Positions 2,121-32,147 of a stretch of DNA of 33,124 bases are shown in pieces. Below the pieces are notes generated by a model. That model did not search any database and was not told the origin of the DNA. It saw nothing but the letters and a program-made list of their open reading frames with translations. The translations under genes and the position numbers were made by a program. Positions within the stretch are counted from its first letter, which is position 1; each line of letters begins with the position of its first letter. Source of the DNA: Methanosarcina sp. Ant1 (GTDB lineage Archaea > Halobacteriota > Methanosarcinia > Methanosarcinales > Methanosarcinaceae); assembly GCA_001714685.2 (NCBI GenBank), contig MDTP02000069.1, positions 1 to 33,124 of the forward strand, given 5' to 3'.

Positions 2121-2624
2121 TCAGTAGATGCTCACTCCCTTCACCAAGGGCAGGTTAAGGATTTTGTCCACCAGGTCTCCGGGCACTTTGCGGTCGGTAA
2201 TGATTGTAAGCCTAGGATTGTCAGTAAGATAGGGGTCATCCGAGACAGCCTGGCGGATACTCATGTTGTTTTTGGAGATAAGGCCTGCAACTTCTGCGAG
2301 AATACCCACATTAGCGGCATCTTCCGGGATAATGATAATCACTCCTAATCCAAGGGAGGGGGCAACATCTCTCAAGAAGGGAATGGAATGAACATTTTTA
2401 AAAATCGTGCTAAGAAGTTCATCTGAGATAATGGTCTTTGTGGTTGCGTCTACCACTCTTCTGTCAACACCTGCCTCTTTTGCAAGCTGGGTATGTGCTA
2501 TCTCGATACTTCCGGAAGTGACTTTTCCTTCCTCGTTCACCTGAAACCCACGTTCAAAGAGCAATTTAAGCACTTTTGCCTGCGCAGGGTATTTTTCAAA
2601 TTTTTTAAGTAATGTCTGCCACAT
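2121..2624 (-). CDS. ACT-domain regulatory protein with N-terminal HTH
   Basis: A 167-residue soluble protein. Residues 1-75 look like a helix-turn-helix region, including AHTQLAKEAGVDRRVVDATT, where a recognition helix would sit. Residues 92-165 form a beta-alpha-beta ACT-like domain starting GLGVIIIIPEDAANVGILAEVAG, with the Gly at the beta1-alpha1 turn that commonly binds amino acids. This matches the archaeal 'predicted regulator of amino acid metabolism with an ACT domain' family. It probably senses an amino acid and controls a biosynthetic gene; the ligand is unknown. ATG 2624 has no Shine-Dalgarno sequence, and a TATA box at 2652-2662 puts the transcript start about six bases upstream, so the message may be leaderless. 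It is divergent from the cysteine-cluster protein. Confidence 0.8.
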   Translation of the reverse strand: MWQTLLKKFEKYPAQAKVLKLLFERGFQVNEEGKVTSGSIEIAHTQLAKEAGVDRRVVDATTKTIISDELLSTIFKNVHSIPFLRDVAPSLGLGVIIIIPEDAANVGILAEVAGLISKNNMSIRQAVSDDPYLTDNPRLTIITDRKVPGDLVDKILNLPLVKGVSIY

Positions 2625-2649
2625 ATAAACTTAATTAAAACTAGTTCCT

Positions 2650-2664
2650 TGATATACTTTCGTA
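2650..2664 (-). promoter_or_regulatory. TATA box of the ACT-domain gene
   Basis: On the minus strand the sequence reads AAAGTATATCAAGG. Its centre lies about 32 bases upstream of the ATG at 2624, so transcription should begin about six bases before the start codon. Confidence 0.4.
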
Positions 2665-2777
2665 TTACAATCTGTTGTCCTCGGAACAAAATTTTCCCGA
2701 ATGGTAATTTTGGAGTGTCGTTGGCACTAACCTCAGCTTGCGTTAATTTGATGTACCTGCAGGGCACGAACTTTTAT

Positions 2778-3581
2778 ATGGAAATTTCCAGCTCAGGCAG
2801 TAAACAAAAGTCAGGAAAAACAAACTACCAGCTCCTTCTCATTGCCAGTCTCAGCAAGGAAATAGAATCGGCTCGCAAACTTGATTCTGAAAAGCTTGCA
2901 GCTGAAATCAGAACAGTTGGTTTCTCCTGCCAGCACTGTGGAAAGTGTTGCCAGCGGGCTTTCGGGGACAATAGGGTAGTGATAATTCCTCCCGAAATCG
3001 AGAGAATCCGGGAATTCACAGGTCTCTCAAAGCTTGAGGTAGCAGGACCATTTGTCCCTGAAACCTTTCAACCGGATGAATTGGATGGGGAAGAAAACAG
3101 TACTGAGGTTTTTTCCGGAGCTTCAGAAGAAAACGAAGATTCGTTCTTCACTGAGTTTCTTGAGCTTTTTCAGGAAAATATCGATTGTGAGGGCAATATT
3201 CACACTTTTGGATGGACACTCAGGCGGAAGAGAAACTGGGACTGCATCTTTCTTGAAAAAGGAACGAGAAGATGCCGGGCGTATCCGGTGCGTCCAATGC
3301 TCTGCAGAACCTATCCCTTTTATCTCGAAGGGCTGAAATTGCACACGTGCGAGTGCGAAGGTCTCAGATGTCCGATTTCTGTAGAAGACAGCCGAAAACT
3401 GGCAGAAAATCTCCTTTTCAGGTATATTTCGGAGCTTGAGGACATGCTTGCTATGTATGAAAAATATGTAGATTTCATGAGAGACGAAAAAGGACTGGAG
3501 CTCGCAAAGGAGAGCTTGGAAAAAGGCACATGTACATATATAGTCCACGATAGCACAGGAATTACTAAAATTATTGAGTGA
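2778..3581 (+). CDS. YkgJ-like cysteine-cluster protein (putative Zn/Fe-binding)
   Basis: A 267-residue soluble protein with the CxxCGxCC motif CQHCGKCC (about residues 50-57 from this start), a second cluster CRAYPVRPMLCRTYPF, and a third CECEGLRCPI. This spacing is the YkgJ / 'Fe-S oxidoreductase' cysteine-cluster signature. The cysteines are thought to bind zinc or an iron-sulfur cluster; the biochemical role is not established. The insert between clusters 1 and 2 is acidic (Glu/Asp-rich, roughly 88-135). The frame stays open up to 2649, but the upstream part is hydrophobic and unlike the family, and overlaps the promoter region of the divergent gene. I therefore start at ATG 2778. No good ribosome site is visible there. 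Confidence 0.75.
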   Translation: MEISSSGSKQKSGKTNYQLLLIASLSKEIESARKLDSEKLAAEIRTVGFSCQHCGKCCQRAFGDNRVVIIPPEIERIREFTGLSKLEVAGPFVPETFQPDELDGEENSTEVFSGASEENEDSFFTEFLELFQENIDCEGNIHTFGWTLRRKRNWDCIFLEKGTRRCRAYPVRPMLCRTYPFYLEGLKLHTCECEGLRCPISVEDSRKLAENLLFRYISELEDMLAMYEKYVDFMRDEKGLELAKESLEKGTCTYIVHDSTGITKIIE

Positions 3582-3694
3582 CAACACAACAGCACAAAGT
3601 TGTAAAACTCATTGATTAAGCTTTCTTTATTTTTAAGCATATTTATCTTTGCATATGCCTGAAGGATATTTTAATTTCTGCATGCTCTGAACCA

Positions 3695-3718
3695 TCAATT
3701 AAATTTATTTATTATAAA
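3695..3718 (+). promoter_or_regulatory. TATA box of the dehydratase gene
   Basis: The stretch AAATTTATTTATTATAAAG ends about 18 bases before ATG 3735. The TATA centre near 3709 predicts a transcript start at or within a few bases of that ATG, consistent with a leaderless or very short-leader message. Confidence 0.4.
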
Positions 3719-3734
3719 GAGCCAGTTATTCCCC

Positions 3735-5030
3735 ATGAACGGAATGTCTGGTAATGAAAATCGTCCGATGACAGTTTCGGAAAAAGTCTTCTCGAAAGCG
3801 GCCGGAAGTCCAGTAAAAGCCGGGGATTTCGTGCTGGCAAATGTAGACCTGGCAATGACGCATGACATTACGGGTCCGCTGGCAGTCCAGGGCTTTTACG
3901 AGATAATGAAAGATCAGGAAGAGAAGAAAGTCTGGGACCCTAAGAAAATAGTGATCGTATTCGACCATCAGGTTCCTGCGGATTCCATCAATTCCGCAGC
4001 AAATCATATAATGCTCAGAAAGTTTGCTGAAGAACAGGGAATTCTAAATTATGACGTATATGAGGGAGTCTGCCATCAGGTTCTTCCAGAAAAGGGGCAT
4101 GTTCTGCCAGGAGACCTGATTGTCGGCTCTGACTCGCATACATGCGCGTATGGAGCTTTAGGGGCATTTTCTACCGGCATAGGGTCTACTGACATGGCAG
4201 CTGTTTTTGCCACAGGCAAACTCTGGTTCAGGGTACCTGAGACCTTCCGTTTTGAAGTTGAAGGCAACTTGCCAAGGCGCGTTTACTCAAAAGACCTTAT
4301 CCTTCACCTGATCGGTGACGTCGGGGTAGAAGGGGCCAGGTATATGGCAGCCGAATTCGCGGGTTCAACAATCCGTTCTCTCTCTATTCCCGAACGCATG
4401 ACCATCTCCAATATGGCAATTGAGATGGGAGGAAAAGCAGGAATTATCGAAGCTGATGAGGTGACTGTAGCCTACCTCAAAGAACGAATTTTATATTACG
4501 AATTTGACCCCTACTGGAAATCTGACGAAGAAGCGGAATATGTAGCTACCAGGCACTACGATATCTCTGATCTGGAGCCCCAGGTGGCCTGTCCGCATAA
4601 CGTGGACAACGTAAAACCTGTAACTGAGGTCGAGGGCACAAAAATTGACCAGATCTTTATGGGTTCTTGCACTAACGGCAGGTTCGAAGATATTAAGATC
4701 ATGGCAGATATCATGGGTGACGAGCCGGTAGCAAAGGGTGTACGACTCCTTGTTGTCCCTGCTTCAAGGACAGAATACATGAAACTGTTGAAGGCCGGAT
4801 ACATTGAAAAGCTTATGAATGCCGGTGCAATCGTGGAATCTCCCTGCTGCGGCCCATGTATGGGCGGTTCTTTCGGCCTACTTGGTGCCGGGGAAGTGGG
4901 CCTTGCAACGTCTAACCGCAACTTCAAAGGCAGAGAAGGGAGCTCCGAATCTTTTGTATATCTCTCCTCCCCTGCAACCGCAGGAGCATCAGCCCTTACA
5001 GGAGAAATCACTGACCCCAGGAAGGTTTGA
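3735..5030 (+). CDS. hacA: Homoaconitase / 3-isopropylmalate dehydratase large subunit
   Basis: A 431-residue member of the aconitase family, LeuC/HacA branch. It catalyses the stereospecific dehydration-hydration of homocitrate-type or isopropylmalate substrates together with a separate small subunit, which is not in this window. The [4Fe-4S] ligands are C312 (MGSCTNGR), C372 and C375 (CCGPC); C371 is an extra neighbouring cysteine. The substrate loop [20 protein letters not shown] is at 131-150. In methanogens one paralogue acts in the 2-oxosuberate route to coenzyme B and another in leucine synthesis. The large subunit alone does not tell them apart, so the gene symbol is tentative. ATG 3735 lies where a TATA box at about 3709 predicts transcript start; ATG 3744 is an alternative. 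hisE follows after 59 bases and may be cotranscribed. Confidence 0.85.
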
Positions 5031-5089
5031 ACAACTTCCTGTTTGCTTTTTGAGTATTTCTCTGCGTGTTTACATCAACAGGTGTTAGA

Positions 5090-5404
5090 ATGTCGGATGC
5101 TGACTTATCAATTTTGAACAGGGTATACGAGATAATCCTGGACCGGAAACAGAACTATGACGAGAGTTCATATGTCTGCAAGCTTTTGAACAATCGCAAG
5201 GGTATGAACAAAATTCTTGAAAAAGTAGGAGAGGAATCAATTGAAACTATTCTTGCAGTCAGGAATGAAGACCATGCAGAGATCGTTTCGGAAAGTTCGG
5301 ACCTAATCTTCCATCTTCTGGTAATGCTTGCGGCAAATAATATCACCCTGGAAGAAATTGCAGCCGAGCTTACTGCCCGGCATGAAAGTATGAAAAGAGA
5401 CTGA
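5090..5404 (+). CDS. hisE: Phosphoribosyl-ATP pyrophosphatase
   Basis: A 104-residue all-helical enzyme of the MazG-like superfamily. It hydrolyses phosphoribosyl-ATP to phosphoribosyl-AMP and pyrophosphate, the second step of histidine synthesis. Visible signatures are the Ser-Ser-Tyr-Val stretch followed by KVGEESIE, with the metal-binding Glu pair, and the second helix [18 protein letters not shown], with the Glu-x-x-Asp metal ligands. The length is normal for a stand-alone HisE. The frame extends to GTG 5066, but ATG 5090 starts the conserved region and has GGTG just upstream. It follows the dehydratase gene on the same strand by about 60 bases. No other his gene is nearby. Confidence 0.9.
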
Positions 5405-5533
5405 AGGTTTAGAGAATTTGCTACACCTGGCTTGAAGGTGAAAACAATTAAAATGTTGGGGGAATTCTCGTTTTTTCCGCAAACCCTGCGGAATTTTCCT
5501 GCTTTTTCCTATAACTGTGAAAAACCTTAATTC

Positions 5534-6409
5534 TCAGTAAACTGCCAGTTCGTTCAGGACATCGGTTTTTGATAGGGTTCCTTTGGGTACGCCGTTGATT
5601 GTTACAATAAGCCTTCCTACGTTATATTTATGGAAGAGTTTTACCACGTCGTAGAGTTGCATGTCCCCATCGACAGTGATTAGTTCTTTTGTCATGATAT
5701 CTTTAACTTTTACGTTCGGTTTACCCTGGGCAATGGCATGGGCGATATCTGTGTAGGTAATTATCCCTACGATTTTCCCCTTGTCCTCTACAGGGGCTCC
5801 GTGAACGTTGTTCCTGATAAAAAGCCTTGTTGCTTCCTGAATACTTGAATTCATATTCACAAGCAAAGGAGGATATTTCATATAATGTTTAACGTGTTTT
5901 TTAGGAAGAGATATCATTTCGGTAATATTGAAGAGAATAGAGTTACTAGTGTCGTCCCTTCCTGTAACTTCTCCGCGAACTATCAGGCGGTTTACAGGCG
6001 TCGGGCCAACTTGAATCTTATCGTCCATCACAAAGTCCTTTATATTCCCTAGTACACGGATGACTCCGTTACAGGCGTCGGGATTCCTGACGGTCGTAAA
6101 ACTAATTTCAGAAGCTGTAGCACTATTAACTATCATATTGTTTCTGTAAAGGGGAACAACTGATTCGTTTTTAAGTTGCTGGATGCGTAAAGCGTCATAT
6201 GCTGCCCCTGTAGGTTTGTATCCTCCTTTTGGTCCGGGGACTCCTTCCACCAACCCCAGAGCCTTTAATAACTGCATCTGGTTGCGGATAGTTCCAGGAT
6301 TGCGCTGGATAACCTCAGCAATTTCTTCCCCCTTGATTGCCCTGTCCTTTTGCCGCTGCAGGTTGATTAATGCATTAATAATATCTTTTTGAATAGAAGT
6401 GAGTTCCAT
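5534..6409 (-). CDS. HTH-CBS domain regulator
   Basis: A 291-residue soluble protein. Residues 1-80 form a winged helix-turn-helix (helices around 8-20, 26-35 and 40-50, wing at 56-66 with GPKGGYKP). Residues 90-165 are a middle region of unknown fold. Two CBS domains follow: CBS1 at about 170-226 (NNVHGAPVEDKGKIVGIITYTDI) and CBS2 at about 230-290 (YNVGRLIVTINGVPKGTLSKTDV). CBS pairs bind adenosyl ligands such as AMP, ATP or SAM, so this is probably a ligand-sensing DNA-binding regulator. Its target is unknown. ATG 6409 has GGTGGAAAT just upstream. A minus-strand TATA box near 6476-6486 fits. It is divergent from the Nog1-like GTPase across a 350-base spacer. Confidence 0.85.
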   Translation of the reverse strand: MELTSIQKDIINALINLQRQKDRAIKGEEIAEVIQRNPGTIRNQMQLLKALGLVEGVPGPKGGYKPTGAAYDALRIQQLKNESVVPLYRNNMIVNSATASEISFTTVRNPDACNGVIRVLGNIKDFVMDDKIQVGPTPVNRLIVRGEVTGRDDTSNSILFNITEMISLPKKHVKHYMKYPPLLVNMNSSIQEATRLFIRNNVHGAPVEDKGKIVGIITYTDIAHAIAQGKPNVKVKDIMTKELITVDGDMQLYDVVKLFHKYNVGRLIVTINGVPKGTLSKTDVLNELAVY

Positions 6410-6473
6410 ATTTCCACCATCAATTTCATATACCTTTATAAGGATGATGTGTTATACACAGATAATCTATGCT

Positions 6474-6488
6474 ACTCTATATATTTGC
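6474..6488 (-). promoter_or_regulatory. TATA box of the HTH-CBS gene
   Basis: Minus-strand sequence GGCAAATATATAGAG. It lies about 70 bases before the ATG at 6409, giving a leader of about 40 bases. Confidence 0.4.
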
Positions 6489-6604
6489 CATAATTAATGA
6501 TTATAAATTCCTATTATAATTACTATTACAAATATAAAAAGAGTCCGGTTCTGCTTTGAATTTCCAGCTGGTTTTATGCCTTATATTGAAGTTTATTACC
6601 AGGG

Positions 6605-6618
6605 TTTGTGATCACAAA
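6605..6618. promoter_or_regulatory. Perfect 14-bp palindrome, possible operator
   Basis: TTTGTGATCACAAA is its own reverse complement. It lies in the spacer between the divergent HTH-CBS and Nog1-like genes, about 100 bases upstream of the probable GTPase TATA box. It could bind a dimeric regulator, but the palindrome could also be chance. Confidence 0.3.
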
Positions 6619-6713
6619 TCTAAAATTGAGCAATAAATTTCCATTCAGGAAACTACTTTCAGGAATCTCGCGAAACTTATGCTTGCTATTTGTTTTGTTA
6701 AAAACTTTCGTCC

Positions 6714-6732
6714 ATAAATATATTTATTTAGC
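6714..6732 (+). promoter_or_regulatory. TATA box of the Nog1-like GTPase gene
   Basis: The stretch ATAAATATATTTATTTAG at about 6714-6731 is a good archaeal TATA element. It predicts a short leader before ATG 6760. Confidence 0.45.
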
Positions 6733-6759
6733 TTAACAGAGCCCCCCGAGGGTTAGAAT

Positions 6760-7764
6760 ATGATGATATTTGAGAAAATCCATACAGTTCCCACTTCCGA
6801 GGAATTAATCAATAAATCTTTCAAGCGGGCAGCGAGAGCGATGTCCGGGAAAACGATCGAAGACAAGGAAAGCCGGTTCAAGGCCAATGAATCCATGCTA
6901 CTGACAGCAGCAAACATCTTTACAGATAATCTTGCAAATATAGTCAGGCGGTTCCCGAGTTTTGATCAATTACCCAAGTTCTATTATGAGCTTACGGATA
7001 TCCTTGTAGGCGTGGAGAACCTTAAGATGTCCCTGGCATCCGTAGACTGGGCTAGCAAGAAGATCCACGAAGTTGCAAGGAGCTACGTTGGAAAAATCAG
7101 GGATTCGGACATTCCAGAACCTGTCAGAAGAGAGGCTTTCGGGCGGATTGCATCCATTATTAAGTCCATTAATAAGGATCTTCTCTTACTGAACGAAGCC
7201 AGAAATATCTTAAGAAAACTCCCGGACGTCCAGGACGAACCAACAATTGTGGTAGCTGGCTACCCGAATGTTGGGAAGTCAAGTTTCGTCTCGAAAATAA
7301 CAGGTGCAAGCCCGGAAATTGCTCCTTATCCCTTCACAACAAAAGGAGTAAAAATCGGGCATTTTAGCCGGGATGGAGTCCGCTACCAGGTTATGGATAC
7401 ACCTGGGCTTCTTGACCGCCCCATGTCTGAGAGAAACATTATTGAACGGCAGGCAATCACTGCTATCCACTTCCTTGATGCGGTTGTAATGTTCATGATT
7501 GATCCCAGTGAAAGCTGCGGATACGAGATTGAAGACCAGAAACGTCTGCTTGTGGAAATTCAGGAAAACTTTAAACTTCCCATGCTTGTGGTTGCAAACA
7601 AGGCTGATCGACCGGAATTCCGGAAAATGGATGAAGTCGAGATGAACGTTTCCATGATGACAGGAGAAGGAGTCGAAGATGTAGTGGACAGGCTTCTGGA
7701 AATGATTGAAGAAAAGCGCCTTCTCTCTTCTTCCGAAGAACCGGATACAGGGTCTCCAATCTGA
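6760..7764 (+). CDS. Nog1-like GTP-binding protein
   Basis: A 334-residue GTPase of the Obg/Nog1 branch. The helical N-terminal domain (1-160) is the Nog1-type bundle. G motifs follow in order: G1 GYPNVGKSS (167-175), G2 PFTTKG with Thr193/194, G3 DTPG (213-216), G4 NKAD (280-283) and G5-like MMTGEG (299-304). In eukaryotes Nog1 acts in 60S ribosome assembly, and the archaeal homologues are presumed to act in large-subunit biogenesis. The protein ends soon after the G domain, so it lacks the long C-terminal part of eukaryotic Nog1. ATG 6760 follows CGAGGGTTAGA; ATG 6763 is possible. An array of six 18-bp repeats starts 28 bases after the stop. Confidence 0.88.
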   Translation: MMIFEKIHTVPTSEELINKSFKRAARAMSGKTIEDKESRFKANESMLLTAANIFTDNLANIVRRFPSFDQLPKFYYELTDILVGVENLKMSLASVDWASKKIHEVARSYVGKIRDSDIPEPVRREAFGRIASIIKSINKDLLLLNEARNILRKLPDVQDEPTIVVAGYPNVGKSSFVSKITGASPEIAPYPFTTKGVKIGHFSRDGVRYQVMDTPGLLDRPMSERNIIERQAITAIHFLDAVVMFMIDPSESCGYEIEDQKRLLVEIQENFKLPMLVVANKADRPEFRKMDEVEMNVSMMTGEGVEDVVDRLLEMIEEKRLLSSSEEPDTGSPI

Positions 7765-7792
7765 TTTCCGACCATCTGATCCTTAAGTCTAA

Positions 7793-7900
7793 ATTAAGGA
7801 CTTTGATTCAATTAAGGACTTTGATTCAATTAAGGACTTTGATTCAATTAAGGACTTTGATTCAATTAAGGACTTTGACTCAATTAAGGACTTTGATTCA
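7793..7900. repeat. Six tandem 18-bp repeats
   Basis: Unit ATTAAGGACTTTGATTCA occurs six times head to tail: 7793-7810, 7811-7828, 7829-7846, 7847-7864, 7865-7882 and 7883-7900. Five copies are identical; the fifth has one change (GACTCA). The array sits between the convergent Nog1-like and CcdA-like genes. Because 18 is a multiple of three it makes an open frame on the plus strand coding a repeated Leu-Arg-Thr-Leu-Ile-Gln hexapeptide. That frame has no ribosome site and I treat it as non-coding. Confidence 0.97.
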
Positions 7901-7915
7901 GCTTTGTATTTCTTT

Positions 7916-8842
7916 TCAGATTATTCTAAGCTGCATCAGCAGGGCAAGGGAAATAAGTATAAGTCCTGTTGTCAGCCTTATTTCTACTCTCCATTTTTCC
8001 CTGAACTCAGTAACCTCTTTCGGGCTCAGTCCAAAGGAAAGCAAAAGTCCAAGAGCTACTATAGGAATCAAGAGGCCGATATTGTAAAGTCCCATATATG
8101 CTATTCCTTTCGTCATATCGGTTTTTGTTACCAATATACTCAGGATAGAGAGGTAAACAGCCCCTACGCAAGGGGCTTTGACCAGGAAGTACATCCCCCC
8201 CGAAAGGAAGGACAGCAATAGAAGGTTTTTTTCGTTCATCCCGCTCATAAAGTTCTTTAGAGAATTGGGAGTCTTGAAGGTTGATCTTGCATGCTTTTTA
8301 AGCCAGTATGCATCAAAGATATGCCAAAGGCCAAGAAAAGCAGTAAGCAAGATCGTAACTATAATAAAACTTCCCCGGATTTCAGGCAGGAAATTGACAG
8401 TGCTGAGGATACTGATTCCTGCAAACATATGTATTGCAAAGATCCCTGTTGAAAAACCTAAGGTAATTTTGAGCATTTCCTTTCTTCCTCCCTGCTGTAC
8501 AAGGATGACAGAAGCCAGGAAAGCCATTACCGCAAGCAGACAGGGATTGATACCTGCAAGGATACCTGCTGCCAGGAAGAAAAAGGGGTTCATTATCTCA
8601 ATATGTTTATTTACCCCGACTCTACTTTCTGTCAGGGGAGATGAAAATTCCTGGGCAAAAATTAAAGAAGGAGTTTCTACGACTTTTGTCAGAAAACCTT
8701 CGATTGAATTCTTATATTGTCTATAAAAGCAGCCTGTCAATTTGTTTTCAGCTGAAACGACAGAAGCGGCAGCAGGGCTCAGCAACAAAAGAATGAATAT
8801 TAACACAAAAAATCCCTTAGTTGTAAGCAGTGGACTCACCAT
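7916..8842 (-). CDS. CcdA-like membrane thiol-disulfide transporter
   Basis: A 308-residue membrane protein. It opens with a signal-like hydrophobic segment (10-27) and a roughly 60-residue extracytoplasmic region with a lone Cys38. About six transmembrane helices follow (86-115, 128-150, 158-175, 206-238, 250-270, 290-305). The two redox cysteines of the CcdA/DsbD fold are visible: C101 in GINPC and C225 in KAPCVG. CcdA proteins pass electrons from cytoplasmic thioredoxin across the membrane to extracytoplasmic thiols, for example for cytochrome c maturation. There is no fused thioredoxin domain. The partner is unknown; a thioredoxin and its reductase lie at 21213-22456 but are not linked to it. 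ATG 8842 follows AGGATAGGAAAA. A TATA box on the minus strand lies at about 8873-8885. Confidence 0.82.
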   Translation of the reverse strand: MVSPLLTTKGFFVLIFILLLLSPAAASVVSAENKLTGCFYRQYKNSIEGFLTKVVETPSLIFAQEFSSPLTESRVGVNKHIEIMNPFFFLAAGILAGINPCLLAVMAFLASVILVQQGGRKEMLKITLGFSTGIFAIHMFAGISILSTVNFLPEIRGSFIIVTILLTAFLGLWHIFDAYWLKKHARSTFKTPNSLKNFMSGMNEKNLLLLSFLSGGMYFLVKAPCVGAVYLSILSILVTKTDMTKGIAYMGLYNIGLLIPIVALGLLLSFGLSPKEVTEFREKWRVEIRLTTGLILISLALLMQLRII

Positions 8843-8870
8843 CGTTTTTTCCTATCCTTTCTCCTAATTT

Positions 8871-8888
8871 ATTTTTATAAATATACTC
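8871..8888 (-). promoter_or_regulatory. TATA box of the CcdA-like gene
   Basis: Minus-strand sequence TATATTTATAAAAATAA, about 35 bases upstream of ATG 8842, predicting a very short leader. The rest of the spacer up to 9151 shows nothing I can name. Confidence 0.35.
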
Positions 8889-9151
8889 AAAATTTTCTGG
8901 ATCTATAGGCACATAGCTTCTGATAAGATATTTACTTTGTATCATATATGCTCAAATTTTCTCTTATAGTCAGGAAAGTACCTTTATTCAGGCCCAGTTT
9001 TGCTCTTTCACAGTATTCAGATGGACTGAATATATCTTTTTCTAATTTTTCGACTTTTTTTGGGGAAAGGCAGGCGAGATACAAAACAAGAGAAGTAAAA
9101 AAGTTAAGTAGAAAAAAGCATTCCCATTTTACAGGGATCTCTGTGTATTTT

Positions 9152-10264
9152 TCAGAGTACTTTTTCCATGATATTCAAGGCTTTTTCAATATCCTTCATT
9201 GAAGCTGCATAAGAGATTCTTATGTAGCCGTCGCCCTCGCTTCCGAAAGCTGTCCCTGGCACGACGATAACGCCGTTTGAGATCAATTTAGAGGCAATCT
9301 CTGCGGAATCTGAAACTTTCGGAAAGGCATAGAAAGCTCCTTTGGGAAGAGCACATTCCATCCCGAGTTTATTCAGCCCTTTTACGAGCACATCCCTGCG
9401 TTTTCTGAACTCTTCCTTCATAACATTGACCGAGTCTTTAGGTCCGGTCACTGCGGCATAAGCAGCCTTTTGAGCGACTGAATTGGCACATGCCTGAATA
9501 TACTGGTGTACCTTGAGCATCTGACCGATATACTCTGCTCTGGCTGCCACGTACCCTAGTCTCCAGCCAGTCATGGCATAGCTCTTCGAGGTAGCGTTTA
9601 CGGTAATCACATTATCCGAATAACTTGCAGGGCTTACGTGCTCTCCTTCATAGATAAAGTACTCATAGACTTCGTCTGAAAGGATGGTTATATTGTGATC
9701 CTCTGCAATTTCGGCAAGGGCTTTGGTATCCGCCCTGCTTGAGACTGCCCCTGTGGGATTTGAAGGGGAATTAAGAACAATAGCTCTGGTCTTCGGGGTA
9801 ATTTTCTCGAGCACGGCTTCAGGCTTCATAGTAAGGTCCTCTGAGAGAGGAACGCTTACTGCCCTGCCGTTCAGGATCTCGGTCAGCGCGTTATAGGAAA
9901 CAAACCCGGGATTTGAGATAAGGACTTCATCTCCTGGGTTGAGGAGGGCTGCAAGGGCAATGGCAAGAGCTTCCGATGCTCCGGAAGTGACAATTATTTC
10001 CTGTGGTGAAACCGAAAACCCGTTTTCTTCCTTGAATTTTAAGCTCAGGGCTTCTCTGAGTTCCAGAATTCCAGATCCGATTGTATAACCCGTAAACCCT
10101 TCGTTTATGGCTTTTATTGCCGCTGCCTTGATATGCTCAGGGGTATCAAAATCGGGCTGTCCGAGTCCAAGGTTGATGGCGTCTGAGCCTGCAGCTTCGA
10201 AAATTTTTCTAATTCCAGATGTATCTATTTTGGCTACGTTTTCTGAAAACTTTATCTCCTTCAA
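9152..10264 (-). CDS. PLP-dependent class I aminotransferase (aspartate/aromatic type)
   Basis: A 370-residue fold-type I aminotransferase. Signatures are LGLGQPDFDTP near the N-terminus, SPSNPTG (substrate and cofactor contact), SDEVYEYF (Asp to the pyridine nitrogen), the Schiff-base lysine in NATSKSYAMTGWRLGY (K227 from this start), and the substrate-carboxylate Arg in YIRISYA. It transfers the amino group between amino acids and 2-oxo acids; the family covers aspartate, aromatic and alanine-like activities and the substrate cannot be fixed from sequence. I chose TTG 10264 because GGAGGG lies seven bases upstream and the conserved region starts there; the frame stays open to an upstream TTG at 10288. 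The hexuloisomerase gene lies 69 bases upstream on the same strand. Confidence 0.85.
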   Translation of the reverse strand: MKEIKFSENVAKIDTSGIRKIFEAAGSDAINLGLGQPDFDTPEHIKAAAIKAINEGFTGYTIGSGILELREALSLKFKEENGFSVSPQEIIVTSGASEALAIALAALLNPGDEVLISNPGFVSYNALTEILNGRAVSVPLSEDLTMKPEAVLEKITPKTRAIVLNSPSNPTGAVSSRADTKALAEIAEDHNITILSDEVYEYFIYEGEHVSPASYSDNVITVNATSKSYAMTGWRLGYVAARAEYIGQMLKVHQYIQACANSVAQKAAYAAVTGPKDSVNVMKEEFRKRRDVLVKGLNKLGMECALPKGAFYAFPKVSDSAEIASKLISNGVIVVPGTAFGSEGDGYIRISYAASMKDIEKALNIMEKVL

Positions 10265-21526: not shown

Positions 21527-22456
21527 ATGTACGACCTTATAATTGTAGGAGGGGGGCCTGCAGGGCTCACAGCAGGAATTTATGCCGTGCGCTCAGGGCT
21601 TGACACTCTGGTTCTTGATAGAAGCGAAATTAGCGGCCAGATCGCGCTTGCAGATATAGTGGAAAATTATCCTGGTTTTCCGTCGATCTCAGGGCTTGAG
21701 TTAATGGAAAAATACAAAAGCCATGCCCAAGAAGCAGGGGTAAAAACAAAGATAACTGACGTCCTCTCTGTTCGCTCTGAAGGAGCAAAGAAAATAGTTT
21801 CCACGGACAGCGGAGATCTTGAATCAAGAGCTGTTATAATTGCCACTGGTGCAAACCCAAAGCACCTTGATGTTCCAGGAGAAGAAGAGCTTATCAGTAA
21901 AGGGGTTTCCTACTGCGCCATCTGTGATGGGCCTTTTTTTAGAAACAAAACTGTTGTAGTGATCGGAGGAGGCAACTCGGCAATTACAGATGCTCTTTTT
22001 CTTTCGAAGATTGCACGGAAGGTATATGTTATCCACAGAAGAGACAGGTTGAGAGCGGCAAAAATTCTTCAGGACCGGGCTTTTGCAACTTCGAATATTG
22101 AATTCATCTTTAATGCCTGTGTCGCGGAAATCGTAGGGAGTAAGGGAGAAATTAGAAGGGTCGAAAAAATAGCCCTTAATGACCTCAAAAGTAGAGAAAT
22201 CCGAGAACTGGCTACAGATGGTGTTTTCATTTATGTCGGTATCCATCCAAACACTGAAATTGTCAATGTGGATAAAGATGAAGAAGGCTTTATCAAGACT
22301 GACCGCTCACTTGAGACATCTGAGAAAGGGATCTATGCAGTTGGAGACTGCCGCGACACAAATATCTGGCAGCTTGTAGCAGCAGTTAGAGACGGGGCAC
22401 TCGCAGCGACTGCTGCAAATGAATACATAGAAAACTTCAAAGAACAGGTTAAATGA
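21527..22456 (+). CDS. trxB: Thioredoxin-disulfide reductase
   Basis: A 309-residue flavoprotein of the low-molecular-weight thioredoxin reductase type. FAD binds at GGGPAG (8-13) and at the C-terminal GIYAVGDCRD. The redox-active pair is C130-C133 in SYCAICDG. The second nucleotide-binding motif is VVVIGGGNSAITDALFL, followed by HRRDRLRA. The Arg pair in HRR is the usual mark of NADPH use, though archaeal relatives may use other donors such as F420H2. It passes electrons to the thioredoxin encoded just upstream, presumably in the same transcript. ATG 21527 follows CGGAGGTAAGT. The next gene is convergent. Confidence 0.92.
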   Translation: MYDLIIVGGGPAGLTAGIYAVRSGLDTLVLDRSEISGQIALADIVENYPGFPSISGLELMEKYKSHAQEAGVKTKITDVLSVRSEGAKKIVSTDSGDLESRAVIIATGANPKHLDVPGEEELISKGVSYCAICDGPFFRNKTVVVIGGGNSAITDALFLSKIARKVYVIHRRDRLRAAKILQDRAFATSNIEFIFNACVAEIVGSKGEIRRVEKIALNDLKSREIRELATDGVFIYVGIHPNTEIVNVDKDEEGFIKTDRSLETSEKGIYAVGDCRDTNIWQLVAAVRDGALAATAANEYIENFKEQVK

Positions 22457-22599: not shown

Positions 22600-22881
22600 T
22601 TAATCTACCATCTGGTTGATTTTAGTGTAAAAATCTATTATCAACCTTGTTGCCTCGCTTTCCATGTTCAGCTGGAAGGTTCGGATTTGCTTTCCCAGGG
22701 GTTTTTCTATGACAATCCCTGACTCAATCAAAGGTGTGATAACCCTTGATACGCTTGAATGCGACAGTCCAGTTTCTTCAGCTATCCCTGAAAGGTAAGT
22801 TGATTCGTTCTGGCGTTCGATCAGATTCTTAAGGACTGTCATCTGTGCGGTTTTCCCGAAGATTTTTTCTAGTGGATCCAT
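22600..22881 (-). CDS. Winged-helix transcriptional regulator
   Basis: A 93-residue single-domain DNA-binding protein. It starts MDPLEKIFGKTAQMTVLKNLIE, then a helix-turn-helix at about 28-50 (LSGIAEETGLSHSSVSRVITPLIESGIV), and a wing (IEKPLGKQIRTFQL) before a C-terminal dimerisation-type helix. This is the MarR/ArsR-like layout seen in many methanogen regulators. No ligand or metal site is visible. ATG 22881 has GAGATGATA upstream; ATG 22890 is possible. The gene ends 143 bases from trxB, convergent with it, and is divergent from the receiver-like gene. Its target is unknown; a minus-strand TATA element lies near 22953-22962. Confidence 0.8.
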   Translation of the reverse strand: MDPLEKIFGKTAQMTVLKNLIERQNESTYLSGIAEETGLSHSSVSRVITPLIESGIVIEKPLGKQIRTFQLNMESEATRLIIDFYTKINQMVD

Positions 22882-22949
22882 TGCTATCATCTCAGAGGTG
22901 GCTACTCTCCGTAAGTGATTTTTATTTCCAATATTAACTTGTTATTTAC

Positions 22950-22965
22950 AGTTATAAACTTATCT
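22950..22965 (-). promoter_or_regulatory. TATA box of the winged-helix gene
   Basis: Minus-strand sequence ATAAGTTTATAACTGT, about 75 bases before the start codon at 22881. Confidence 0.35.
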
Positions 22966-23029
22966 CCTTATTGGTTAAGTCAGGCGATCAATACAAAATC
23001 TTCTAAATATTTGGGTCACTTTGTTCTAT

Positions 23030-23049
23030 CTATACTATATATAATTTAC
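23030..23049 (+). promoter_or_regulatory. Probable TATA box of the HTH-receiver gene
   Basis: CTATACTATATATAATTTAC around 23029-23049 is a good TATA element, about 80 bases upstream of ATG 23125. A second TATA-like run at 23097-23106 is too close to the start codon to be used in a normal message. Confidence 0.4.
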
Positions 23050-23124
23050 CATAATATATCATCGTAAATATTTTAGAAATGTTTAATAACTAAGAAAATA
23101 TATACTGTATAGAGGTGGAGGGTA

Positions 23125-23637
23125 ATGAACGAGAAAAATCTTGATCATGAGATCTTGAAATTGATTGAAGCACAGCCTGAAATAAATGATACTGATATTG
23201 CCCGTAATCTTTCGATTTCGGAAGAACTAGTAAAGACGCGCATTGCAAACTTTAAGGATACAAGAGAGAAAATCCTTATTATGAGTTATGGGCCTAGCAT
23301 CTACGATAGCCTTAAATTGGCGCTTGAACCTGAGAATTATAGCGTTGTCAAAGCTCCTGGAGGCTCTTCGGCTCTTGAAACTGTAAAAACCGAAAAGCCC
23401 GACCTCTTCCTGTTAGATACCGGACACGCGGATATAGATGGTTTTGAGATATGCAAGCAGCTGAAGGCTAGTTCAAGGTACCGGTGGATGCCAGTAGTAA
23501 TGCTAAGTGAAAGAGGTGAGGCAAAAGACAGAGTTAAAGCTTTTGAGTCAGGGGCAGATGATTATGTTACTACTCCTCTAAACCCACTTGAATTGAAAGC
23601 CAGAGTCAGGATGATATTAAGACGTACTCGAATATGA
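23125..23637 (+). CDS. HTH protein with degenerate response-regulator receiver domain
   Basis: A 170-residue protein with two parts. Residues 1-44 form a winged-helix/AsnC-like N-terminal domain (DIARNLSISEELVKTRI). Residues 48-165 are a CheY-like receiver fold. The phosphoacceptor position Asp98 is kept (LFLLDTG), as are the DGFEIC helix start, the Ser128 strand end (MLSER) and GADDY. Other key residues are lost. The acidic pair at the end of strand 1 is Ser-Tyr (54-55, LIMSYG instead of LIVDDD). The strictly conserved Lys before Pro is Thr150 (VTTPLNP). So it probably does not undergo normal metal-dependent phosphorylation, and may be a pseudo-receiver sensing something else or acting through dimerisation. 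ATG 23125 has GGTGGAGGG just upstream. The HTH-then-receiver order is the reverse of most bacterial regulators. Confidence 0.82.
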   Translation: MNEKNLDHEILKLIEAQPEINDTDIARNLSISEELVKTRIANFKDTREKILIMSYGPSIYDSLKLALEPENYSVVKAPGGSSALETVKTEKPDLFLLDTGHADIDGFEICKQLKASSRYRWMPVVMLSERGEAKDRVKAFESGADDYVTTPLNPLELKARVRMILRRTRI

Positions 23638-24489
23638 GCTGAAGGGAAAATCCGGCTTCTAACAGGAAAAAATTCATTCTTCTCTCACTACATGGTTCTG
23701 TAGACTGAGAAGACTGCTCTGAAAAGCGAAAACTTTTTAGAACATTTCTTTTGAGATTTTTTCCCTCACCCCCTTCAGCATATGTGGGCAAATTATATTA
23801 GTAGATACCCTTATGGTCTCTCTACTAGACCCTTAATTCATTGATTAATTTATACTATTATTTTTTGTTTTTCAATAGTCATATTTACTTTTTTTATAGT
23901 ATTCCCCAGAAATACACTTTTAAAATATGCATAGAGATGTAGAGAGAAATCTGAATGTAATTTTTCGAAAGTCAGAGAAAATCTCTAAGTTCCCTATATT
24001 ACAGACAATAATGGAATTTAAAGGCAATAATGGAATCCTGGAAAAATCGTGAGATGAATAAGTTTTACGTTCTTGAAAAAGGGTTTGCCTGATTTGTTCT
24101 CTCATCTTTGAGCTCGATTTTTTCCTTGTCAGGGCAGAATAATGAGTTTTATTGCGGAGAACTGGGCTAATTTTAATCTATCAAAACCACAGTTTCTCGT
24201 TTTTGGCTTTGAATAAAATAGACTTATCATAAAATTAGATTATTTACTAAAAATATAGTCCATATTTTTAAAACATTATTTTTAAAATACTAATGTATAT
24301 GAATATTTCAAAATCTTTAAAAAAGAATAAAACGAAAATTATAACGCGTAACTGCAAATATGTTCTTATTTTCTGTAAGGAGCTAAAGTACAAAACTGAT
24401 TTAATGCTCTGAAGACATATATTATTTTTGTTAGGGTAGATGTGGTAAACTGTGGAAAAACGTGATCGAAAAAAGGTGTGGTAAAAACT
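23638..24489. other. 850-base gene-free A+T-rich spacer
   Basis: No coding frame is convincing. CAATAATGGAAT is duplicated with an 18-base period at about 24006-24035. A TATA-like CATATATTATT at about 24416-24426 is about 70 bases before the TPR gene start and is its likely promoter. I see no structured RNA I can name. Confidence 0.5.
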
Positions 24490-25368
24490 ATGACTTCGAA
24501 CGAATGGTACAATAAAGGCGTTGCACTCCATGAACTTAAAAGGTTTGCAGAAGCTCTGGATGCCTACAATAAAGCTCTGGAAATAAGTCCTGACAATGCA
24601 AAAATATTGTTCAGTAAGGGAGCGGTTCTGAAAAACCTGTTGAGGTATGATGAAGCTCTCGATGCCTTTAACAGGTCCATCGAGATCAACCCTACGGATG
24701 CGAAAACTTTGTGCTGTAAAGCTGAATTGCTTATGGGTCTTACGCAGTACGAAGAAGCTATGGATACATATTCTCGGGCTATATATCTTGCGCCTCAGGA
24801 GCCTGAGGTCTGGTACAGGCGGGGAATGGCTCTCAGGGAACTTAAGGCGTACGAAGACGCCATGGATGATTTTGAAAAAGCTATCCGCATCTATGAAAAA
24901 AGCTTTGACATGAACTCTATGAGCGCAAGTGAATGGTGCAAGAAAGGCATGAGCCTCTGTAAGATAAAAAGCTTTGAGGAAGCTCTTGATGCGTTTGACA
25001 GGGCTCTTGAGTTAAACCCTGCGAATGGAAAGGCTCTCTATAACAAGGGAGTGGCTCTCCGCTGGCTTGGAAAGTGCGACGAAGCAAGGCTTTATATAGA
25101 AAAAGCAGTGGGGATTTTTGACACCAAAATAAAAGCAAATCCGGAGAACGCCAGATTCTGGTACAATAAGGGAATTGCCTTAAGAGACCTGGAAAAATAT
25201 GAAGAGGCACTTGAAGCTTTTGAAAGAGCTATCGATATCAACCCGAGTTTTACAAAAGCCTGGATTGGTAAGGGTATTGTATACGATAGAATTAAGAAAC
25301 ACCATAAAGCAATGGAAGCCTACGAAAGGGCAGTAGATATAAATCCGATATATTCGGATCTTCTTTAA
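24490..25368 (+). CDS. Protein of eight tetratricopeptide repeats
   Basis: A 292-residue soluble protein made wholly of TPR units, which stack into a scaffold for protein-protein binding. Units are about 34 residues each, with the Trp/Leu-Tyr-Gly-Ala-Tyr/Phe-Ala-Pro pattern clear: unit 1 begins NEWYNKGVALHELKRF, units 5, 7 and 8 begin SEWCKKGM, RFWYNKGI and KAWIGKGI. Units 4 and 6 each have seven extra residues at the end of helix B (41 instead of 34). No enzymatic domain, signal peptide or membrane segment is present. Start ATG 24490 has GGTGTGG upstream; GTG 24478 is less likely. Its binding partners are unknown; no operon partner is near. Confidence 0.85.
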   Translation: MTSNEWYNKGVALHELKRFAEALDAYNKALEISPDNAKILFSKGAVLKNLLRYDEALDAFNRSIEINPTDAKTLCCKAELLMGLTQYEEAMDTYSRAIYLAPQEPEVWYRRGMALRELKAYEDAMDDFEKAIRIYEKSFDMNSMSASEWCKKGMSLCKIKSFEEALDAFDRALELNPANGKALYNKGVALRWLGKCDEARLYIEKAVGIFDTKIKANPENARFWYNKGIALRDLEKYEEALEAFERAIDINPSFTKAWIGKGIVYDRIKKHHKAMEAYERAVDINPIYSDLL

Positions 25369-29970: not shown

Positions 29971-31737
29971 TTATGCCAGGTCCGCCGCAATGCGGATAGG
30001 GGCTATGTAGTTTACTACCTGCAAGACTACGCTCTCAAGAAAGTTGCGTACATTTTGGGAAATCCTGTCTGTAGTATGGGAAGCAAAGTTTAGACTGCCT
30101 ATTGTTTCTCCTCTATGTATCATAGGGATCACCGCGACAGCAGTAATTTTTTCCTTCCTGATTAAATCTGCCATTTTCTCTGAATAAAAATCCAGCTTGT
30201 AGATGGGTTTTTCAGTCCAAATCTGCCGCGCTTCAGGAGAATCTGCATTATATGTTGAAATGCTCTTAACAAACTCGGAGGAAAGTCCTCTGTATGCAAC
30301 CAGGTTAATCCGATCAAGGAGATCGTCTTTCAGGTATATACCTGCAGCATCTATCTCTTCTATTCTCAAGCAGGCATCAAGGACCATATTAAGCATAGCA
30401 TGAAGGTTCCAGGTAGTACTCAGGGATACTCCGAGTTCCCTCTGGATCTCAAGCATTTTCTGTGCTTCTTTCCTTTCAGTAACATCGACAATTATTCCCT
30501 GAAAATGAGTTACATCTCCTTTACTGTCTCTCTGGATAAATGTCCGCTCCTCAACCCAGCGAATATTACCGTCCCCGGTAAATATTCTGTATTCCATCTC
30601 AAAAGAGTCATTTCCTTCTCTTATTGAAAGTGCGAGATTTTCGATGACTGCTTTGATGTCCTCTTTGTGTATTATATTCCCATAAAGTAGTTTTTCAGAT
30701 GTAAAGTCCTCTGCTGTGTACCCGAACTGACTCACATTTTCGGAAACAAATTCTGCAGGCCAGTTTCCCCTATTTTTCCATAGAAAAGCCACTGCCGGAC
30801 TTTTGTTAATTATGGTTTTCAGTATTTTCTGCATTTCGAGAGATTTTCTAAGGGCCTCTTCCACTCTTTTTCTCGGAGTTATATCCAGTACTATTCCCTG
30901 AAAGCAGGTTACCTCCCCATCTCCCTCTCTATGAATAAATGTCCTCTCGTTTACCCATCTCACGTCCCCGGCTTTTGTGAAAATCCTGTACTCCGAATTG
31001 AAGCTTACCTCACCTTTCTGGATGCTTCTTTCAAGCTCTTCTTCTACTTTTCCCAGATCATCAGGATGTATGATTTTCCCATACAGGACTTTTTGTGATA
31101 AAAAATCATCAACTGTATAGCCAAACTGTATTAAATTGTCGGAGACAAAAACCGCAGGCCAGTATTTGTCGTTTTTCCAGAGAAAGACCACTGCAGGACT
31201 GTTGTTAATAACTGTAGTCAGTATTTTCTGCATCTTAAGGACTTTTTCCAGCTTTTCTTCACTCTTCTTCCGCTTGGTGATGTCGAGCACCATTACCTGA
31301 AAGTGTGTTATCTGCCCACTTGTGCTTTTCTGGATAAAGGTCCTTTGGTTTATCCATCTAACATCCCCTGTTTTTGTTAAAATTCTGTACTCAATAATGA
31401 ACTCTGGAGATCCGCTCCTGATCTTTTTCTCAAACACATCTTGAACATTTTCGAGATCATCAGGATATATTATATCCTTGTACAACACCCTGCCAGATGT
31501 TAGGTCTTCTACAGTATACCCAAAATTCGCCACATTTTCGGAGACAAACTCTACAGGCCACTTATCTTCGTTTTTCCAGAGGAAAAGCACTACTTGACTA
31601 TTATTAATTATCGTTTTCAGAGTTTCTTCTTTCTCCAGGACTGCTTGGAGAGCCTCACCTCTCTTATTGTCTCCAGCTTCCGTTCTTCGAAGACCCTTAT
31701 TTAAATCTTCTTTTTCCTCTGAAATTTTAATATCCAT
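29971..31737 (-). CDS. PAS-PAS-PAS-GAF sensor protein without a kinase domain
   Basis: A 588-residue soluble protein (594 if TTG 31755 is used). After a charged N-terminus (1-38) come three tandem PAS domains with PAC ends, at about 40-157, 173-287 and 305-423. They share FLWKN, EFVSENV, FGYT, and DITKRK or DVTERK, with a period of about 132 residues, so they are recent internal duplications. A GAF domain follows at about 431-585 (IDAAGIYLKDDLLDRINLVAYRG, VAVIPMIHRGETIGSLNFAS). No histidine kinase, phosphoacceptor His or output domain follows; the protein ends 15 residues after GAF. Methanosarcina has many sensor kinases of this build, so this looks truncated or regulatory. No transmembrane segment is seen. 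The start codon is uncertain. Confidence 0.8.
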   Translation of the reverse strand: MDIKISEEKEDLNKGLRRTEAGDNKRGEALQAVLEKEETLKTIINNSQVVLFLWKNEDKWPVEFVSENVANFGYTVEDLTSGRVLYKDIIYPDDLENVQDVFEKKIRSGSPEFIIEYRILTKTGDVRWINQRTFIQKSTSGQITHFQVMVLDITKRKKSEEKLEKVLKMQKILTTVINNSPAVVFLWKNDKYWPAVFVSDNLIQFGYTVDDFLSQKVLYGKIIHPDDLGKVEEELERSIQKGEVSFNSEYRIFTKAGDVRWVNERTFIHREGDGEVTCFQGIVLDITPRKRVEEALRKSLEMQKILKTIINKSPAVAFLWKNRGNWPAEFVSENVSQFGYTAEDFTSEKLLYGNIIHKEDIKAVIENLALSIREGNDSFEMEYRIFTGDGNIRWVEERTFIQRDSKGDVTHFQGIIVDVTERKEAQKMLEIQRELGVSLSTTWNLHAMLNMVLDACLRIEEIDAAGIYLKDDLLDRINLVAYRGLSSEFVKSISTYNADSPEARQIWTEKPIYKLDFYSEKMADLIRKEKITAVAVIPMIHRGETIGSLNFASHTTDRISQNVRNFLESVVLQVVNYIAPIRIAADLA

Positions 31738-32147
31738 TTCTCCAACCGCCTGCAAAGGGCTCTCTCATACATCCATTTTAATACATTGCTATACAGTTCT
31801 TCTGCGCTTTTAAGTTCTCTTTCTTATTATAATTACATTTTTATCAAAGTTCAATTTTTTTTATCCGTCCTTATTTTTATGCGTTTTTCTGATTTTGGTC
31901 GTCGGTCGTCCATTTGTATTCAGTTGTTGTTATTCCACAATAATCAAAATAACGTCTACCCTCATTCTTTTCTCGTGACTTTGGAGTTTTTAGAGCTATC
32001 GTGTCGCAATAACATAAAACGCAATCAAGAGGAGCTTTAGATATTTCCCCCTAAAACACCAACCCTGTATCAGTGGACGACCCTGATTTTAAAAAGAAAT
32101 AAATAAGGAATAAAATGCAACTCTCATAAAGCTAAAAGTCCCATTTA
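31738..32147. other. Spacer upstream of the PAS-GAF gene
   Basis: It must hold the promoter of the PAS-GAF gene; a weak TATA-like minus-strand element is possible near 31780-31790. An 84-codon plus-strand frame at 31786-32040 is Phe/Ser-rich without ribosome site or domain and is not called. Confidence 0.4.

Follow-up and report, generated by a model that had tools for sequence, protein, structure and literature searches.

Introduction

Regulators in which a helix-turn-helix (HTH) domain precedes the receiver (REC) are a known archaeal kind, termed LtrR-like (PMC5847659). In the type member, LtrR (Mbur_0695) of Methanococcoides burtonii, D98 is phosphorylated by the kinase LtrK (Mbur_0694); the single mutants D54N and D55N still accept phosphate and the D98N mutation abolishes phosphorylation (PMC4823666). 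Pseudo-receivers are known in bacteria, where DNA-binding proteins such as GlnR, ChxR and HP1043 carry a receiver-like domain without the catalytic residues. Such regulators commonly dimerise without phosphate, and GlnR and RamR keep the Asp, which serves dimerisation (PMC12632262). How pseudo-receivers are activated was called a mystery in the same 2025 review, whose authors were aware of no functional work published on any from archaea (PMC12632262).

Here we describe a protein that resembles GlnR, ChxR and HP1043 in pairing a DNA-binding domain with a receiver-like domain devoid of the catalytic residues, and that differs from them in being archaeal, HTH-first and of a different family. In the bacterial regulators of this type, the receiver is N-terminal. 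The archaeal protein is a form of LtrR with a pseudo-receiver; this form is old, has lost its kinase and is kept by selection.

Results

The window encodes an LtrR orthologue

The DNA analysed (hereafter the window) is a stretch of 33,124 nucleotides from Methanosarcina sp. Ant1. It encodes a 170-aa LtrR-like HTH-REC protein with a pseudo-receiver, the Methanosarcina orthologue of M. burtonii LtrR (Table 1). A first-pass annotation, made from the letters of the DNA, had reported this open reading frame, with Asp98 and Ser128 kept, Ser54-Tyr55 at the acidic pair and Thr150 at the Lys position; translation and alignment confirmed all of these points and the coordinates. Pfam placed a receiver (PF00072, Response_reg) at residues 51–162 with an E value of 3.3e-20 and an N-terminal HTH (HTH_24) at residues 6–44, above the gathering score. 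The AlphaFold2 model (mean pLDDT 91.6) gave the expected HTH and receiver, with HTH helices at residues 3–16, 22–29 and 33–46 and a complete (beta-alpha)5 fold from residue 49 on. The last helix of the HTH leads almost directly into receiver strand 1, and a wing is not predicted. OmpR/PhoB-type receivers, namely RpaA, a YycF homologue and PhoB, were the top matches in a PDB fold search. The model was built from a 30-row alignment with bacterial receivers only, and its close fits to activated receivers were not counted as evidence of conformation. A scan of genome contigs, a set that leaves out near records, yielded bacterial OmpR/PhoB-type receivers alone, with matches of about 40%.

The window protein and M. 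burtonii LtrR align end to end with the same residue numbering and a full-length match of 43%, belong to one gene tree, and both adjoin sHTH, a small winged-HTH gene. They also have in common the HTH-REC order, a length of about 170 aa, the numbering 54/55/98 and the divergent orientation of the sHTH neighbour (L167). The first-pass annotation had regarded the HTH-first order as the reverse of the usual one; the order is real, and it is not peculiar, as it defines a known family (PMC5847659, PMC4823666). In genome G075, the LtrR orthologue has D54, D55 and D98, exactly as published for M. burtonii LtrR; the LtrK beside it is 592 aa long and has the His residues named in PMC4823666 (367, 443, 448 and 502). 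M. burtonii LtrR has DD, D, T and K and is phosphorylated on D98 by the kinase encoded next to it; the window protein differs in carrying S54, Y55 and T150, and no LtrK was found in its genome. The window protein is an LtrR orthologue by descent, and not a canonical response regulator.

Table 1. Features of the LtrR locus in the window
Feature	Position	Strand	Basis
Pyridine nucleotide-disulphide (thioredoxin-reductase-like) oxidoreductase, upstream synteny anchor	21527..22456	+	synteny
sHTH, 96-aa winged-HTH protein, divergent neighbour of LtrR	22600..22890	-	synteny
Divergent sHTH–LtrR intergenic region, 234 bp	22891..23124	.	alignment of 15 loci
LtrR-like HTH-REC protein, 170 aa	23125..23637	+	translation, Pfam, tree
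Three-helix HTH, residues 3–46	23131..23262	+	HTH_24, model
Receiver domain, residues 49–168, (beta-alpha)5 fold	23269..23628	+	PF00072, model, PDB fold search
Codons 54–56, SYG replacing the acidic pair (DDE in relatives)	23284..23292	+	alignment of 30 proteins of the genus with 15 from outgroups
Phosphoacceptor position, Asp98 in all 30 proteins of Methanosarcina	23416..23418	+	alignment
Ser128 (T position, kept) and Glu129 (T+1, derived)	23506..23511	+	alignment
Thr150 at the active-site Lys position; T/A/M/E/P/V in the genus	23572..23574	+	alignment
Apparently non-coding stretch, 840 bp, in the place of LtrK in kinase-bearing relatives	23638..24477	.	synteny
TPR-repeat protein, downstream synteny anchor in Methanosarcina and g21	24478..25368	+	synteny

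The phosphotransfer site is degenerate throughout Methanosarcina

The canonical DD-D-T/S-K site is not intact in the window protein, from which both acidic residues (DD1 and DD2) and the Lys are missing. Moreover, the protein has A102 and E129; the D+4 Pro is lost and the T+1 residue is neither Ala nor Gly, secondary changes typical of pseudo-receivers as defined in PMC12632262.

The degeneracy was assessed in 30 orthologous Methanosarcina proteins, the window protein included. A full-length orthologue at 56–75% identity was present in 29 of 30 genomes of the same genus; the exception, G018, a fragmented assembly that is 90% complete, gave matches to neither sHTH nor LtrR. No protein keeps the first acidic residue (Gly in 25, Asn in three, Ser in two), and the second position holds Asn in 12, Asp in ten, Tyr in four, Glu in three and Ala in one, thus remaining acidic in 13. 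The active-site Lys is lost in 29 of the 30, and both Lys150 and Pro102 remain only in L125 (genome G026). Asp98 is lost in none, which rules out an aspartate-less receiver, and Ser128 and Tyr147 are each kept in 28. Conserved derived residues are G54 with G56 (25/30), T99 (28/30) and E129 (27/30).

Outside the genus the picture differs. All 15 order-level outgroup proteins first examined keep the Pro and the Ala along with DD, D, T/S and K, and beyond Methanosarcina and its sister genus, g21, the site is intact in 63 of 63 orthologues. When the comparison is extended to the family, both acidic residues occur in 67 of 97 proteins, the remaining 30 being exactly those of Methanosarcina. Chance or sequencing error was ruled out by the recurrence of site loss in the 30 genus orthologues, and recent decay in one strain by its genus-wide span. 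The Ser54-Tyr55 combination itself occurs in only two of the 30 proteins, the genus consensus being G-[N/D/E]-G. A conserved new site formed by Ser54-Tyr55 and Thr150 was ruled out because these positions are variable.

LtrK is gone from the locus in Methanosarcina and its sister genus

In relatives, sHTH (93–112 aa), LtrR and a histidine kinase form a module. At all 49 kinase-bearing loci, drawn from the family genera g3, g4, g5, g7, g19 and g24, LtrK lies directly downstream of LtrR, sHTH is adjacent and the site is intact (D-[D/E]-D-T-K). At 15 Methanosarcina loci (the window and L140–L153) and four g21 loci (L156–L159), sHTH and LtrR are divergent, the same TPR gene lies downstream and LtrK is absent. 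The gap between LtrR and the TPR gene at the 15 Methanosarcina loci is 840–1178 bp long and apparently non-coding. No recognisable LtrK remnant was detected in this gap (best E 0.15), and no Rfam family was detected in the whole window, the 840-bp stretch included. In 15 Methanosarcina genomes, full-length LtrK matched nothing beyond the kinase core of unrelated entries, that is, of proteins other than LtrK. The LtrK sensor half had no match in 22 Methanosarcina genomes of good quality and four of g21, and the positive controls, the g4 genomes G129 and G130, were recovered with E values of about 1e-82. Relocation of LtrK elsewhere in the genome was ruled out by these two negative searches with their positive controls.

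Conserved blocks adjoin both genes in the sHTH–LtrR intergenic region across the genus, as aligned at 15 loci, and the inverted repeats found in this divergent promoter are AT-rich and imperfect ones only. The gene arrangement varies further away: at the f5 locus L135, sHTH overlaps the LtrR gene (sHTH end 4767, LtrR start 4764), and five order-level orthologues of f3 have neither sHTH nor a kinase adjacent, yet keep the full canonical site. Therefore, loss of the neighbours alone does not explain the decay. A distant kinase may serve the f3 orthologues.

Order of kinase loss and site decay

The 34 kinase-less proteins of Methanosarcina and g21 form one clade (support 100/99). The g21 proteins keep DD, K and Pro, with Ser at T+1 and the coupling Tyr changed to Phe or Cys. 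Since this kinase-less clade includes g21, in which the site is kept, kinase loss came first and site decay later. One g21 species (G066, locus L158; LtrR gene 4889–5392) has Asn at position 98 and keeps DD and K, indicating that D98 is dispensable there; this decay is complementary to that of Methanosarcina. Within Methanosarcina, the G026 protein retains Lys, Pro and Ala but not the acidic pair. In the remaining 29, the first acidic residue, Lys and Pro are all gone, and nearly all of these proteins have gained Thr99 and Glu129 (Glu129 in 27 of the 29, where kinase-bearing relatives have Ala).

The Lys was lost once. For the acidic pair there were one or two losses: the gene tree calls for two changes, and Methanosarcina as a single clade was not rejected by the AU test (p 0.089). 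Grades of the decay are thus found in living organisms: g21 with an intact site or Asn98, G026 with the pair lost and Lys kept, and 29 species with both lost. We regard it as possible, rather than probable, that these living intermediates represent a stepwise archaeal series from kinase loss to a phosphorylation-independent regulator, with Asp98 and a new T99/E129 pocket taken on to keep the receiver active and dimeric.

Selection on LtrR

LtrR has a median dN/dS of 0.134 (43 pairs), compared with 0.09–0.10 for the TPR and oxidoreductase genes and 0.032 for sHTH, an extremely conserved protein. A dN/dS of 0.13 indicates that the protein is selectively maintained, and a pseudogene was ruled out on this ground. 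Slow pseudogenisation, in which the protein would be a relic of a lost two-component system, is in keeping with the lost kinase, the decayed site and a dN 2–6 times that of the neighbouring genes; we consider it highly improbable given the dN/dS, the lack of any in-frame stop across 30 species, the conserved promoter-side blocks and an HTH that is at least as conserved as the receiver. The site is lost across the genus and the gene is under purifying selection; the degenerate state is therefore old and does not represent recent decay.

The ratio of mean REC to HTH divergence was 1.22 (95% interval 0.92–1.75) in the 29 Methanosarcina proteins and 1.80 (0.93–4.85) in g21. It was 0.42 (0.31–0.56) in g5, 0.41 (0.24–0.69) in g3, 0.51 (0.35–0.77) in g24, 0.66 (0.46–1.00) in f5, 0.79 (0.46–1.48) in g4 and 0.26 (0.15–0.43) in f3. 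The interval of the 29 is apart from those of g5, g3, g24 and f3 and overlaps those of g4 and f5. By position, residue 55 lies at the 90th and residue 150 at the 94th percentile of variability and D98 is invariant; positions 55 and 150 therefore hold no conserved sensor site or replacement chemistry.

A phosphorylation-independent dimer as the proposed mechanism

The window protein is a kinase-orphaned LtrR descendant, its LtrK lost and its site lost stepwise, and we consider it probable that it acts as a phosphorylation-independent constitutive dimer with a DNA output. LtrK was lost in the ancestor common to Methanosarcina and g21, with LtrR and the divergent sHTH retained. Stepwise loss of the acidic pair, the Lys and the beta3-alpha3 Pro followed in the receiver, with Asp98, Ser128, Tyr147 and several PhoB-type alpha4-beta5-alpha5 interface residues retained through the decay. 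The receiver would now hold a constitutive dimer for which phosphorylation is no longer needed, and the output would be set by the amount of protein, perhaps together with a ligand or a partner protein. The HTH is predicted to bind DNA, at least at the divergent promoter common with sHTH, and sHTH would be the constant working partner of LtrR. Asp98 may now be structural, as reported for GlnR and RamR.

D145, D146, E156 and R167 do not vary among the 29 proteins, and 28 of them have R160. The residues at R136 and E141 differ between proteins, and 26 have Gly at the K117-equivalent, indicating that the interface is incompletely kept. We take these charged residues to be those of the PhoB-type alpha4-beta5-alpha5 interface.

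The first-pass annotation had suggested a receiver-like fold reused for phosphorylation-independent sensing. As the cognate kinase has been lost too, independence is the most likely reading, and the protein likely works without phosphate; the reuse for sensing is unsupported, positions 55 and 150 being among the most variable. A ligand sensor of another design, in which the HTH is controlled through a small-molecule pocket made up of T99, E129 and a new G-x-G loop after strand 1, would account for the conservation of these derived residues, and some bacterial pseudo-receivers do bind ligands (PMC12632262). We think this very unlikely, as the same pocket contains the variable residues 55 and 150, the window protein itself carries S54, and no linkage to a ligand gene was seen.

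Another explanation is that the protein is an inefficient but working two-component regulator, with Asp98 phosphorylated by an orphan kinase or a small-molecule donor and the signal relayed by Ser128 and Tyr147. Changes of DD, T or K need not abolish phosphorylation (PMC12632262), and weak phosphorylation of Asp98 is possible because the D54N and D55N mutants of LtrR are still phosphorylated (PMC4823666). The retention of Asp98, complete, and of Ser128 and Tyr147, near-complete, also agrees with this explanation, as do the 53 kinases, mostly orphans, of M. acetivorans (PMC11784639). However, the first acidic residue and the Lys are both gone in 29 of the 30 proteins, T+1 is Glu instead of the Ala of relatives, Pro102 and the cognate kinase are lost, and the constraint on the receiver relative to the HTH has fallen.

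The M. acetivorans protein MA1366 bears on the same question. According to PMC11784639, MA1366 is the only HTH response regulator of this species, and phosphotransfer from the kinase MA4377 was profiled on 13 of 15 regulators, two CheA-linked ones being excluded; MA1366, which we infer to be among the thirteen, is not named as a target there. Taken together, these points make a working two-component regulator unlikely.

MA1366 is probably the orthologue that we find at L114/L140, which is 64% identical and the only full-length HTH-REC match there. Its own residues are GNG, D, S and M, a degenerate site that the accessible part of PMC11784639 does not discuss. We flag MA1366 because it probably does not serve as the output of a two-component system. 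Given the biochemically characterised ancestor LtrR/LtrK, a kinase loss placed on the tree, sequenced intermediates and the genetic tractability of M. acetivorans, the question of how a receiver goes on working once phosphate control is lost can be tested directly.

Other features of the module and the window

A PDB sequence search with sHTH gave no match, and a literature search for MA1367/MA1368 was uninformative. The window also encodes, at 29971–31755 on the minus strand, a protein of 594 aa that has PAS and GAF domains but no kinase domain recognised by Pfam, possibly a sensor without output. At L160 of G129 (2433–10189), the whole sHTH–LtrR–LtrK module is duplicated in tandem; the second kinase copy aligns over the first half or so only and has an in-frame stop. 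Stand-alone sHTH paralogues, 85–89% identical, occur in the same genome as the window (G000; C86:6447-6731, C70:4327-4611 and C136:2203-2487), and more are found across the genus, none beside LtrR, forming a small family of methanogen regulators.
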